Source: Roseobacter fucihabitans (GTDB lineage Bacteria; Pseudomonadota; Alphaproteobacteria; Rhodobacterales; Rhodobacteraceae). From it: a stretch of DNA of 64,000 bases. The stretch is taken from NCBI RefSeq assembly GCF_014337925.2, contig NZ_CP143423.1, positions 960,501 through 1,024,500 of the forward strand. The letters run 5' to 3'. The translations under genes and the position numbers were made by a program. This document shows positions 7,193-55,875 of the stretch, one piece after another (position 1 is the stretch's first letter; the number at the start of each line of letters is the position of its first letter). The notes below the pieces were generated by a model. It saw only the letters and a list, made by a program, of their open reading frames with translations. It was not told the DNA's origin and did not search any database.

Positions 7193-7267
7193 TGGAGCGG
7201 GCGAGGCGATTCGAACGCCCGACCCTAACCTTGGCAAGGTTATGCTCTACCCCTGAGCTACGCCCGC
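7193..7267 (-). tRNA. tRNA-Gly (anticodon GCC), CCA encoded
   Basis: The minus strand gives an acceptor stem GCGGGCG pairing with CGCCCGC, a D-arm (TAGCTCAGGGGTAGAGC), an anticodon stem AACCT/AGGTT around TGCCA with anticodon GCC, a T-arm with GTTCGAATC, and a discriminator T followed by genomically encoded CCA at 7195-7193. Total 75 bases including CCA. A strong terminator follows. The adjacent DNA upstream carries a decayed insertion sequence. Confidence 0.96.
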
Positions 7268-7522
7268 TTCCTTGGGTGAGCCGTGAAATAGCGGTGCTGC
7301 CGGTTCCCTGCAAGGGAAAAAACCAAAAACTGCCAAAAATCTTTGCATGAGTATCTGCGCGCGCAAAGCACCGCCGCCGCCCCCGATACAGGCCTTCTCA
7401 ACCAGATCCCGTATCCTACCATGGAGATCCCACGTGGGACCGGATCCATGGCGCGTGGCGGGCACCAACGACCTTTCAGATGGCACTTTACCCAATGTTC
7501 TTGGAAGAGCCTGATCTGGTTT
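7268..7522. other. short accessory stretch between tRNA-Gly and the IS remnant
   Basis: No gene is recognisable. The stretch includes an extended inverted repeat at 7419-7451, listed separately. It probably includes the tRNA-Gly promoter on the minus strand just beyond 7267. Confidence 0.35.
7419..7451. repeat. 33-bp nested inverted repeat
   Basis: The ends are CCATGG on both sides (7419-7424 and 7446-7451), extended inward by GA/TC pairs, and the middle is the perfect 12-bp palindrome TCCCACGTGGGA (7428-7439). It lies about 70 bases outside the IS3 inverted repeat. It does not share the arms of the hairpin family found inside the IS. Function unknown. Confidence 0.45.
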
Positions 7523-7590
7523 TGGACCTGTCGCGGTTTCGTGCCGCCCCCGGTGCTCGTTTAAGCCACCTTCCGTTCGAATGCGTACCG

Positions 7591-7629
7591 CTGCCCGGCA
7601 GGCGATTGCAAAGTAATCTGCCGAGAGGG
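7591..7629 (-). repeat. hairpin element copy D (in IS3 orfB tail)
   Basis: Read on the minus strand: left arm CCCTCTC, core GGCAGATTAC-TTT-GCAATCGC, right arm CTGCCGGGCAG. The core folds with one A/C mismatch, which makes it intermediate between copies A and B. It separates codons for KSP from AFERKVA at the end of the transposase, so the empty site can be inferred from the protein. Confidence 0.8.
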
Positions 7630-7816
7630 GGGCTTTTCCAGCCCAGTGCTGAGTGGCGGCGACGCGGATTGTAGAAGCCATTGATGTATTCAAAGATGGC
7701 CATCTCCGGCCTTCCTCCGCGTCTCCCAAGTTTCCCGCCAGATCAGTTCCGCCTTGATGGTTTTGAAGAACGTCTCAACCGCCGCATTATCGTAACAATT
7801 GCCCTTTCCGCTCATG

Positions 7817-7854
7817 CACTGCCCGGCAGCACATGTTTACATGTGTGAGAGGGG
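7817..7854 (-). repeat. hairpin element copy C (in IS3 orfB, different core)
   Basis: Read on the minus strand: CCCTCTC, then a core containing the perfect inverted repeat CACATGT-AA-ACATGTG, then CTGCCGGGCAGTG. The arms match copies A, B and D but the stem sequence is unrelated to theirs. It lies between the codons for GFKAS and MSGKGN of the transposase and shifts the frame. Confidence 0.8.
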
Positions 7855-7930
7855 ACGCCTTGAAGCCATGCTGGCGCAGGATCTTCCGATAATCATGCGA
7901 ACAATATTGGCTTGCGCGTTCCGTGTGGTG

Positions 7931-7966
7931 CCCTCTCGGCAGATTACTTTGTAATCGCCTGCCGGG
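7931..7966 (+). repeat. hairpin element copy A (in IS3 orfB)
   Basis: Plus strand: CCCTCTC, core GGCAGATTAC-TTT-GTAATCGC, then CTGCCGGG; the last CAG of the right arm is replaced by TAA. The stem pairs perfectly over ATTAC/GTAAT and extends to GGCAG/CTGCC. It interrupts the transposase between the segments ending RLH and starting HHTERASQ, in the opposite orientation to copies C and D. Confidence 0.8.
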
Positions 7967-8228
7967 TAATAAATGCAGTCTTTCGGCGGTAAAACGGAAT
8001 GCGACGGCCATGTTTAACGCTCGGATTGCCAGATCGCGCTTCATGCGGTTACTCACTGCCCAGCCGATCACGCGCCTTGAGTGGAGGTCGAGGATGACAG
8101 CCAGATACAGCCAGTCCTCACGCGTCCAAACATAGCCGATGTCGCCAACCCATCTCTGGTTGGGCTGTTCAGCCGCGAAGTCCCGGTCCAGCCGGTTCGG
8201 CGCGATGTTGAACTTGTGGTCACTATCA

Positions 8229-8269
8229 CCCTCTCGGCAGATTGCCTTGCAATCGCCTGCCGGGCAGTG
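8229..8269 (+). repeat. hairpin element copy B (at the IS3 orfA/orfB deletion joint)
   Basis: Plus strand: CCCTCTC, core GGCAGATTGC-CTT-GCAATCGC, right arm CTGCCGGGCAGTG. Compared with copy A, both members of one stem pair have changed (A-T to G-C), so pairing is kept. It lies exactly where orfA after DDLGV is joined to the orfB fragment, so it marks the deletion endpoint. Confidence 0.8.
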
Positions 8270-8456
8270 AACACCCAAATCGTCAGCCACCTGCTTATGC
8301 GTCAGCCCACTGGTCAGCACAATCCGCACCGCATCCTGGCGGAATTCGTCTGTCCGTTTCAGTCCCATAGTCCGTCTCCTTTGGTGCAGTAAATGCTATC
8401 AAAGGAGCAGCAGCAAACCGCAACAGGTCCACTTCGACCCGTTACAATTCTGAAAA

Positions 8457-8716: not shown

Positions 8717-11700
8717 CTATTCCAGCTCGACAAGCAGGTCCTTTGCATCGATCTGACCACCGGGCGTGACGTGAACCGCCTTGATCGTGGCTGCGCGCTC
8801 CGCATGGATACCGGTTTCCATCTTCATCGCTTCGATGGTCAACAACAGATCACCCGCCTTGACCTTACTCCCGACCGTTGCCACGACCGAGGCCACCACG
8901 CCGGGCATTGGTGCGCCGATGTGATTGGCATTTCCGGTCTCTGCCTTGGGGCGTTGGGCCGTGGTGGCCTTGACCAAGCGGTTGGGCACGCGGATCACAC
9001 GCGGCTGGCCGTTCAGCTCGAAAAACACTTTGACCTCGCCGTCCTCATTGGTGTCGCCAACGGCCTGAAGGCGGATTTCCAGCGTCTTGCCAGGGTCGAT
9101 TTCGGCTGAAATCTCTTCGCCGGGCTCCATGCCGTAAAAGAAGGTGCGCGTGGGGAGCGCGCGCACCGGCCCATAGGTGCGATGGCGGCCCATATAATCG
9201 AGGAAGACCTTGGGATACATCAAATATCCCGATAGATCCTCGTCATCCACCACACGCCCGTTCATCGCCTCTGATGCCTCACGGCGCAGCGCTTCGAGGT
9301 CTGCCGCGGGCAGGTGTTTACCGGGGCGATCCATGTTGGGTTTTTCACCCTTGAGGACCTTTTTTACGATTCCTTCCGGAAACCCGCCCGGCGGTTGACC
9401 CAGATTGCCGCGCATCATATCCACAACGCTGTCGGGAAAGGACACATCCGTGGCGGGATTTTCCACATCATCGCGGGTTAGACCCTGCGCCACCATCATC
9501 AGCGCCATGTCCCCCACAACCTTCGACGAGGGCGTTACCTTGACGATATCCCCAAACATCTGGTTCACATCCGCATAGGTGCGCGCCACGTCAGGCCAGC
9601 GATCCTCCAGCCCGAGCGATGCGGCCTGAGCTTTGAGGTTGGTAAATTGCCCGCCTGGCATTTCGTGCAGATATACCTCGGAGGAGGGGGCCTGCATGCC
9701 GGTTTCAAAGGCGGCGTAATGGCTGCGCACCTCTTCCCAGTAATCGGAAATCTCGCGCACGGCCCGCATGCTGAGACCGGTATCGCGATCAGTGTGGCGC
9801 AGCGCCTCGACGACCGATCCCAGCGTGGCCTGAGATGTGTTGCCCGACAGCGCATCCATGGCGCAATCCACCGCATCCACACCCGCCTCAGCAGCGGCCA
9901 GAATAGTGGCACAAGCCACCCCCGCCGTATCATGTGTATGAAAATGGATCGGCAGGCCGACCTCGGATTTCAGCGCCTTGACCAATTGGCGCGCGGCGGC
10001 GGGTTTCAACAGCCCCGCCATATCCTTGAGGCCCAAAACATGTGCGCCCGCGTCGCGCAATTCCTTGCCCATATCGACGTAATATTTGAGGTTATATTTC
10101 GCGCGATCCGGATCATTGATGTCCCCGGTGTAGCAAATCGAGCCTTCGCAAACCTTGTCATTCTCGATCACCGCGTCCATCGCGACGCGCATGTTTTCCA
10201 CCCAATTGAGACTGTCAAAGACGCGGAATACATCGACCCCGGTCCCTGCGGCGACGCGTACGAATTCCTGCACCACATTGTCGGGGTAATTGGTGTAACC
10301 AACCCCGTTGGAGGCGCGCAACAACATCTGTGTCATAACGTTCGGCATGGCCGCGCGCAGATCGCGCAGGCGCTGCCAGGGGCACTCCTGCAAGAAGCGA
10401 TAGGCCACATCAAAGGTCGCCCCGCCCCAGCATTCCATGGAAAACAGCTGCGGCAGATTGGCGGCATAAGCGGGCGCCACCTTGATCATGTCATGGCTGC
10501 GCATCCGCGTGGCCAGCAAGGATTGATGCCCATCGCGCATGGTGGTGTCCGTGATTAGCAATTGGCGTTGCTGCATCATCCAATCGGCAACCCCCTGCGG
10601 ACCCTTTTGCTCCAACAGATTGCGCGTCCCCATCATCGGCTCGCCGCGTTGCGCGGGCGGTTTGGGGTCTTTCATATGCGCGGGCGGGCGGGGGTGGTTT
10701 TTGGTTTCGGGATGCCCGTTCACCGTGATGTCGGCGATATATGTCAGCACCTTTGTACCCCGGTCGCGCCGCTTGGAGAATTGGAACAACTCCGGCGTCT
10801 GGTCGATGAATTTCGTATGATACGTGTTGTCGAGAAACGTCGGATGCTTCAGCAGGTTCTCGACAAAGGCAATATTGGTGCTGACGCCGCGAATACGGAA
10901 CTCGCGCAACGCGCGGTCCATCCGGGCAATCGCGGCCTCCGGGGTCTGCGCCTTGGCGGTCACCTTGACCAACAGGCTGTCGTAATAGCGCGTAATCACG
11001 CCGCCGGAATAGGCCGTACCCCCATCTAGGCGAATGCCCATGCCGGTGGCCTCGCGAAAGGCGGTAATGCGGCCATAATCGGGGATGAAATTGTTTTGCG
11101 GATCTTCCGTAGTGATCCGAGTTTGCAAAGCGTGGCCGTTCAAATGCACGTCTTCCTGTGTCGCTTTGCCGGTGGCTTCGGCGATGGTTTTGCCCTCGGC
11201 GATCAGGATCTGCGCCTGCACGATGTCGATGCCCGTGACCTCTTCGGTGACGGTATGTTCGACCTGAACGCGGGGGTTGACCTCAATGAAATAGAACTTA
11301 CCGTCCTCCATATCCATCAGGAATTCGACGGTGCCGGCGCATTCATAATTCACATGTTTGCAAATCTCATAGCCCAGTTTGCAAACTTCTGCGCGCTGTT
11401 CCTCGCTCAGATAAGGAGCAGGTGCGCGCTCCACGACCTTCTGGTTGCGGCGCTGCACCGAGCAGTCACGCTCAAACAGGTGATACATATTGCCATGTTT
11501 GTCGCCCAGGATCTGCACCTCAACGTGGCGCGCCCTGAGGATCATCTTTTCGAGATAGCCCTCGCCATTGCCAAAAGCGGCCTCCGCCTCGCGACGCCCT
11601 TCAAGCACCTTTTCTTCCAATTCGGATTCGGCGGCAATCGGGCGCATCCCACGCCCGCCACCGCCCCATGACGCCTTGAGCATCAGCGGATAGCCGACCT

Positions 11701-55666: not shown

Positions 55667-55875
55667 GATCATTTTAAGCCGGTCCGCACGTTTGGCACGG
55701 AACACATAGACCGCATCGTCAAAGGGCTTCTTTTGCAAATGGCGTTGCACACGGGCAGCCAAACCATCGTGCCTTTTGCGGAAGTCCACCACTGCCCGGC
55801 AGTCGATACGCAGTATCGATGAGAGTGAGGCTTGGTCGCCACAAATATCTGCACCCCGTGCGATGGGTGGATCAC
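55667..55875 (-). pseudogene. IS66 tnpB fragment, interrupted by a hairpin element
   Basis: From GTG 55875 the frame reads IHPSHGVQIFVATKP, the normal IS66 Orf2 start. Then 38 bp of hairpin element E intervene, and VDFRKRHDGLAARVQRHLQKKP continues in another frame, followed by DDAVYVFRAKRADRLKMI. After that the similarity ends in unrelated sequence. Removing the 38 bp restores the frame (VATKP joined to VDFRKRHDGLA), which shows where the element inserted. Confidence 0.85.
55790..55827 (-). repeat. hairpin element copy E (in IS66 tnpB)
   Basis: On the minus strand: CACTCTC, core TCGATAC-TGC-GTATCGA (perfect 7-bp stem), then CTGCCGGGCAGTG. The arms are those of copies A-D 48 kb away, but the stem is again different. 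The 38-bp insert lies between the codons for VATKP and VDFRK of tnpB. Confidence 0.85.

Follow-up and report, generated by a model that had tools for sequence, protein, structure and literature searches.

A widespread family of small hairpin units, probably non-autonomous mobile elements, in insertion sequences of Rhodobacterales

A 64-kb stretch of the Roseobacter fucihabitans genome (hereafter the window; 64,000 nucleotides) contains members of a family of short hairpin units that reside mainly within insertion sequences (ISs). Each unit is composed of the arm CCCTCTC, a self-complementary core and a second arm, CTGCCGGGCARTG; its boundaries were set by comparison with four plasmid IS3 relatives (L097-L100). 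Unit length ranges from 36 to 45 bp, 41 bp being the commonest value (72 of 172 independent sites). The hairpins are best read as a widespread group of very small mobile palindromes that are not autonomous; in size and fold they resemble REPs, and their arms, exact boundaries, target and habitat set them apart. They probably insert at C|GATGR with no duplication and multiply mainly by riding ISs. This reading is built on the family as observed, on its boundaries and empty sites, on the preferred target, on covariation in the stem and on the finding of units in multicopy ISs. With their fixed arms, their covarying and exchangeable stem and their definite target, they would be some of the smallest mobile DNA units to have precise boundaries.

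The hairpin family in the window and beyond

Four copies are borne by an IS3-family remnant on the minus strand (7523-8431), delimited by terminal inverted repeats (7523-7550 and 8404-8431). Comparison with empty IS3 homologues identified copy D (7589-7629, minus strand; 41 bp, core GGCAGATTACTTTGCAATCGC, end GCAGCG) and copy C (7817-7853, minus strand; 37 bp, core ACACATGTAAACATGTG) as clean insertions, the former at the end of OrfB and the latter within OrfB. In the same comparison, copy A (7931-7971, plus strand; 41 bp, core GGCAGATTACTTTGTAATCGC) showed a variant end, GTAATA, its terminus reading GGGTAATA in place of GGGCARTG. The site of copy A is also a hairpin site in a multicopy element, IS_A (see below), and the variant end recurs at this site in another IS3 copy. 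Copy B (8229-8269, plus strand; 41 bp, core GGCAGATTGCCTTGCAATCGC) is found, relative to the empty homologues, where a deletion has brought the beginning of OrfA up against the middle of OrfB, and is not a simple insertion. The preliminary description of this DNA was right about a hairpin family in the remnant, with both orientations and both core types; the boundaries of the four copies, the end of A and the nature of B are refined as given here.

A fifth copy (55790-55827, minus strand; 38 bp, core ATCGATACTGCGTATCGA) has one mismatch in the left arm, CACTCTC, and a flank that by eye resembles an IS66 accessory gene. An additional candidate at 9645-9690, obtained in a scan allowing up to four arm mismatches, was taken as a chance match; the same scan of three mononucleotide-shuffled windows gave 1, 0 and 0 matches. 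A tRNA-like sequence was recognized by eye at ~7194-7270, some 250 bp away from the IS3 remnant.

A search with the pattern CCCTCTCN{15,25}CTGCCGGG returned four matches in the window, against a mean of 0.00 in 100 dinucleotide shuffles. Whether the genome holds further copies, a point raised in the preliminary description, is answered by 101 exact arm matches in its 4,854,520 bases (six contigs), where the reversed pattern has none. Units were matched in 26 of 59 genomes, R. fucihabitans included: 15 of 18 congeners, 9 of 16 other family members and 1 of 24 genomes outside the family. The reversed pattern gave 9 matches across the 59-genome set, so single matches may be due to chance; one match (L010) is not palindromic. 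In a one-genome-per-species collection, at least 120 stretches carry matches. The titles among the matches listed (80) are mostly of Rhodobacterales, the exceptions including Vreelandella neptunia, a Labrenzia and a Planctomicrobium MAG. A similar unit occurs in 77 of 72,556 plasmid records, and nine IMG/VR stretches were matched, several of which adjoin frames that look by eye like transposase genes; one of these stretches (L350) was judged a chance match. Phage records gave a single weak partial match. Altogether, 231 distinct insertion contexts were gathered (L010 excluded), of which 172 were counted as independent. These data confirmed that the hairpins form a real family, far larger than the window copies alone and spread across an ecologically important order of marine bacteria. 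No published description of it was recognized in searches of an open-access library.

Insertion sites, target and stem

The IS3 remnant was aligned with the four intact IS3 relatives (L097-L100), all of which lack the hairpin segments. In the istB gene of an IS21 element of this genome, too, the hairpins are exact insertions when set against the intact istB genes of Leisingera thetidis and Sulfitobacter indolifex. Another IS3, compared in four close plasmid copies, has 3, 1, 0 and 0 hairpins; at one site of this set the flanks, once joined, do not quite equal the empty site, reflecting either an imperfect junction or an altered site. A unit also interrupts one IS200 gene, again with a precise empty site. 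In a noncoding intergenic repeat, 5 of the 30 copies read are filled at the C|GATG position and 16 are uninterrupted, the other 9 differing at the insertion point or bearing something else. No target duplication accompanies the insertions in the IS3, noncoding repeat, istB and plasmid IS3 comparisons. The target, C|GATGR, is weak and one-sided (C 76% | G 74%, A 64%, T 55%, G 61%, R 76% at the 172 independent sites), with little information outside it. The many dispersed copies, varied cores, exact empty sites and target preference bear out the proposal, made in the preliminary description, of a very small non-autonomous mobile element; of the two outcomes that it named as refuting, segments native to full-length IS relatives and a lack of further genomic copies, neither was observed.

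The intergenic repeat itself is about 200 bp long (L236, L239-L241 and L245-L274; G059 and G061); its stems appear to covary, and it has unpaired stretches that are conserved. A pattern for it has 24 matches in one genome, 21 in another and 0 in R. fucihabitans; the stretches tested gave no Rfam match. Within it, two loci (L247 and L259) carry inverted dimers of ~66 bp that look like paired relatives of the single hairpin (CCTCTC-hairpin-TGCCGGCA-hairpin-GAGAGG), and two others (L254 and L260) carry a different inserted palindrome of ~30 bp.

The stem of the unit covaries. Among 69 distinct 41-mers, 95.7% of the cells of the nine-pair stem are paired, the shuffled value being 72.8%, and 114 cells show double-sided changes, against 37.7 in shuffles; control versions in which the stem was slid paired in 31-46% of cells. 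One stem position has no partner opposite and is an A in 63 of the 69 sequences. A shorter class is devoid of this bulge, an A often standing opposite a C at the foot of the stem. Fixity of the left arm and of most of the right arm follows from the search requirement, and relaxed searches yield arm variants. At 83 of the 231 sites, forming 31 groups, units occupy the same position in homologous sequences, and the core class often differs within a group. Even so, same-site cores are more alike than random ones (0.64 versus 0.53, a value reached in 0 of 1000 permutations), and 18% of 84 same-site pairs are at least 0.9 alike, versus 3% at random. Common descent may play a part in this recurrence, as may repeated insertion at favorable targets. 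A role of the core as guide to the target was discarded, as the longest words that cores have in common with their flanks are no longer than in shuffled pairs.

Host genes and hairpin-laden insertion sequences

A Pfam scan covered 213 of the 442 flanking fragments, which were usually taken from both strands and hence include many non-genes. In the named-locus set (148 fragments), the main models were rve (15), DDE_Tnp_1 (13), rve_3 (12) and HTH_21 (9), other transposase models having fewer fragments; families related neither to transposases nor to general DNA binding were RelE and TraG-D_C / T4SS-DNA_transf, with one member each among the best 25 of 31 families. In the second set (65 fragments, mainly from this genome) the families were much the same; RPA and Peptidase_M78 each appeared once, alongside several helix-turn-helix models of general type, again among the best 25 of 31 families. 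The counts overlap and represent fragments, not per-site fractions. Metabolic or other housekeeping families are absent from the Pfam families listed (best 25 of 31 in each scan). Most identified hosts are transposases of many unrelated IS families, and a noncoding repeat is also a host. Target preference does not explain this concentration in transposase genes. Many IS genes of these genomes are broken by units and may escape annotation.

Orientation relative to the gene is sense in 14 and antisense in 12 of 26 confident sites, every phase being present, and only 30 of the 231 units have a length divisible by three. The RNA hairpin cassette contemplated in the preliminary description is weakened by this occurrence in genes both ways and in all phases. 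The hairpins match no Rfam model, either at gathering score (eight loci) or at E<=5 (two stretches).

Some hairpin-laden ISs are multicopy. IS_A is present in five near-full copies, each with hairpins. Although multicopy, it is devoid of the segment in which the last catalytic residue would be expected; an IS3 with 19 copies, about 67% identical, might supply its transposase in trans. Deletions between hairpins were noticed at window copy B and at the fifth hairpin of IS_A (L038:1599-2884), where ~170 bp are gone. An IS1182-like element is found in seven places at 100% identity, five of them near full-length, each with its hairpins, and the genome contains no hairpin-free full copy; subtraction of two hairpins leaves an open frame of 478 codons. 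The IS21 element has three full copies and six hairpins, five in istB and one just upstream in the end of istA. Apart from the full copies, only relatives 68-80% identical were found, one or more of which have a hairpin match. Once its hairpins are left out, most of istB is an open, conserved frame, with 12 bases missing in frame; its omega is 0.055-0.057 versus intact relatives, the intact pair giving 0.047. The start of istB (L050) is broken by another insert of ~41 bases, beginning CGTCTCGCC and unlike the hairpin family. IS3 copies with common hairpin sites gave omegas of 0.061 and 0.097; all quoted omegas use reading frames taken from intact relatives, and values from frames chosen to minimize omega, which are biased low, were set aside. 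An open OrfB frame of 308 codons was likewise obtained from a four-hairpin IS3 of G031, a relative within the Roseobacteraceae. The presence of several hairpins in well conserved genes of multicopy ISs implies that the hairpins either reached these elements in a rapid burst or were tolerated, and the purifying selection may be older than the insertions. Amplified ISs of this kind point to efficient mobilization in trans or to tolerance of inserts in bacterial genes.

If the insertions were tolerated, the transposases would work on through translational skipping, for which mitochondrial byps and T4 gene 60 are precedents, through removal from the RNA or through exact excision from the DNA. The restored 478-codon frame of an IS1182-like element found only with hairpins, the low omega of an istB gene with five of them and the low omegas of the IS3 copies all agree with tolerance. 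We consider it unlikely nonetheless: orientations are balanced, phases mixed and few lengths divisible by three, IS_A is multicopy despite the loss of its presumed catalytic segment, the start frame of istB stays broken by the additional, unremoved insert, and the selection behind the omegas may predate insertion. Bypass in particular was demoted in view of the deletion in IS_A, the mixture of orientations and the lack of housekeeping families among those listed. As for excision, one hairpin is retained in every one of 36 P. pseudonitzschiae plasmid records, with no fresh insertion; the hairpin is stable there, making frequent excision unlikely. It is doubtful that the hairpins are a specialized IS hyperparasite, a sub-50-bp unit placed in transposase genes by a perhaps IS-linked enzyme and tolerated (by excision, trans-complementation or bypass) so that laden ISs amplify under purifying selection.

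The prevalence of transposases from many unrelated IS families among identified hosts would also suit a host system that plants hairpins in transposons as a form of silencing. This idea is improbable, as a noncoding repeat is hit too, no such host system was identified in this analysis, and identical IS copies carry identical hairpins, which places insertion before amplification and shows that amplification was not stopped. Constant arms, variable palindromes and a bulged base recall, in turn, folded recombination sites, and the different core classes within the 31 homologous-site groups could be seen as products of an exchangeable crossover region. Here the homologues contrast presence with absence of the unit, cores share no more with their flanks than shuffled pairs do, no cassette or gene is associated, and same-site cores are more alike than random. 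The recombinase site with variable crossover put forward in the preliminary description is not supported by these results, and a recombination site or native IS part is highly improbable; the native-part version is refuted by the empty relatives in several IS families.

Mode of movement and related elements

We return to the preferred reading, that of non-autonomous mobile units carried by ISs. An enzyme acting in trans would fold one strand of the unit, cut both junctions and join the unit beside CATC|. The bottom strand, 5'-YCATC|CAYTGCCCGGCAG-stem with bulged T-GAGAGGG, is favored: with it, the target information comes to lie 5' of the element, and it is the 3' side of the stem that bears the bulged T, presumably as in IS608-type hairpins. 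The strand choice and the IS608 likeness draw on general background and on PMC8266576. Core classes might represent sub-families in which palindromy is kept by the need to fold. Units would land in ISs and then hitch-hike on IS copying, and recombination between two hairpins in one IS could delete the intervening DNA. A trans-acting enzyme of the HUH type, handling single-stranded DNA, is the foremost, though tentative, candidate.

REP elements, as PMC3733652 describes them, are palindromes of 20-40 bp with an unpaired GTAG/CGTC tag by the stem and many sub-families, thought to be miniature mobile DNA; those of the CGTC class are mostly alphaproteobacterial and without a dedicated transposase. 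The hairpins resemble them in being short palindromes with an unpaired tag beside the stem and many sub-families. They differ from REPs in having GCAG by the stem (bottom strand) and the arms CCCTCTC and CTGCCGGGCARTG, neither GTAG nor CGTC; in their two conserved arms (7 and 13 bp), exact boundaries and target; and in lying mainly within IS genes, the noncoding repeat excepted, whereas REPs are mainly extragenic (PMC3733652). What moves REP-like palindromes lacking a dedicated transposase is a standing question that is now testable. In REPtrons/TnpA_REP and IS200/IS605 systems, according to PMC8266576, a single-strand hairpin is bulged or mismatched and has a tetranucleotide (GTAG in REPs) on the 5' side of its stem; the hairpins likewise have a bulge and, on the bottom strand, GCAG in the tetranucleotide position. 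A miniature IS200/IS605 element would share the lack of target duplication and the short one-sided target, but in the present family one hairpin is the whole unit, not two end hairpins plus an internal segment. In contrast to MITEs, the outer arms are not inverted repeats and no target duplication is seen.

Palindromes within alphaproteobacterial genes are known from the Rickettsia and Wolbachia palindromic elements (also mentioned in PMC3733652). Insertion of the Rickettsia elements is frame-preserving, unlike that of the hairpins with their few lengths divisible by three and their mainly transposase hosts. Mitochondrial byps are short hairpins present in coding sequence regardless of frame. 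The hairpins differ from byps in occurring in both orientations and being largely limited to ISs and repeats, with no visible take-off/landing match. Their arms do not seem to resemble integron attC end motifs.

Neither the collected loci nor a right-arm scan of three genomes contained a longer element with the same ends, so an autonomous parent was set aside within this material; the IS200 and IS91 ends of this genome differ from the hairpin arms. A larger intergenic element as source was also rejected, since it turned out to be a repeat in its own right, most copies of which are empty. Thirteen of the 59 genomes have Y1 transposases, among them R. fucihabitans, which is the richest in hairpins and has ten Y1 matches. 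No units flank the Y1 loci of this genome, although one IS200 type has a unit inside its gene. Y1 matches number 0 in two nearly closed genomes, G016 (22 hairpin matches on one contig) and G031 (11 on two contigs). The lack of a linked Y1 gene flanked by units, together with these two genomes, sets the family apart from REPtrons as PMC8266576 portrays them. Across 20 genomes, hairpin count correlates with Y2 count (rho 0.75, p 0.00015) and with Y1 count (rho 0.63, p 0.003), IS load being an uncorrected confounder of both. IS91-like elements (L336-L344) are present here in several near-identical copies, and Y2 counts follow hairpin counts within the genus.
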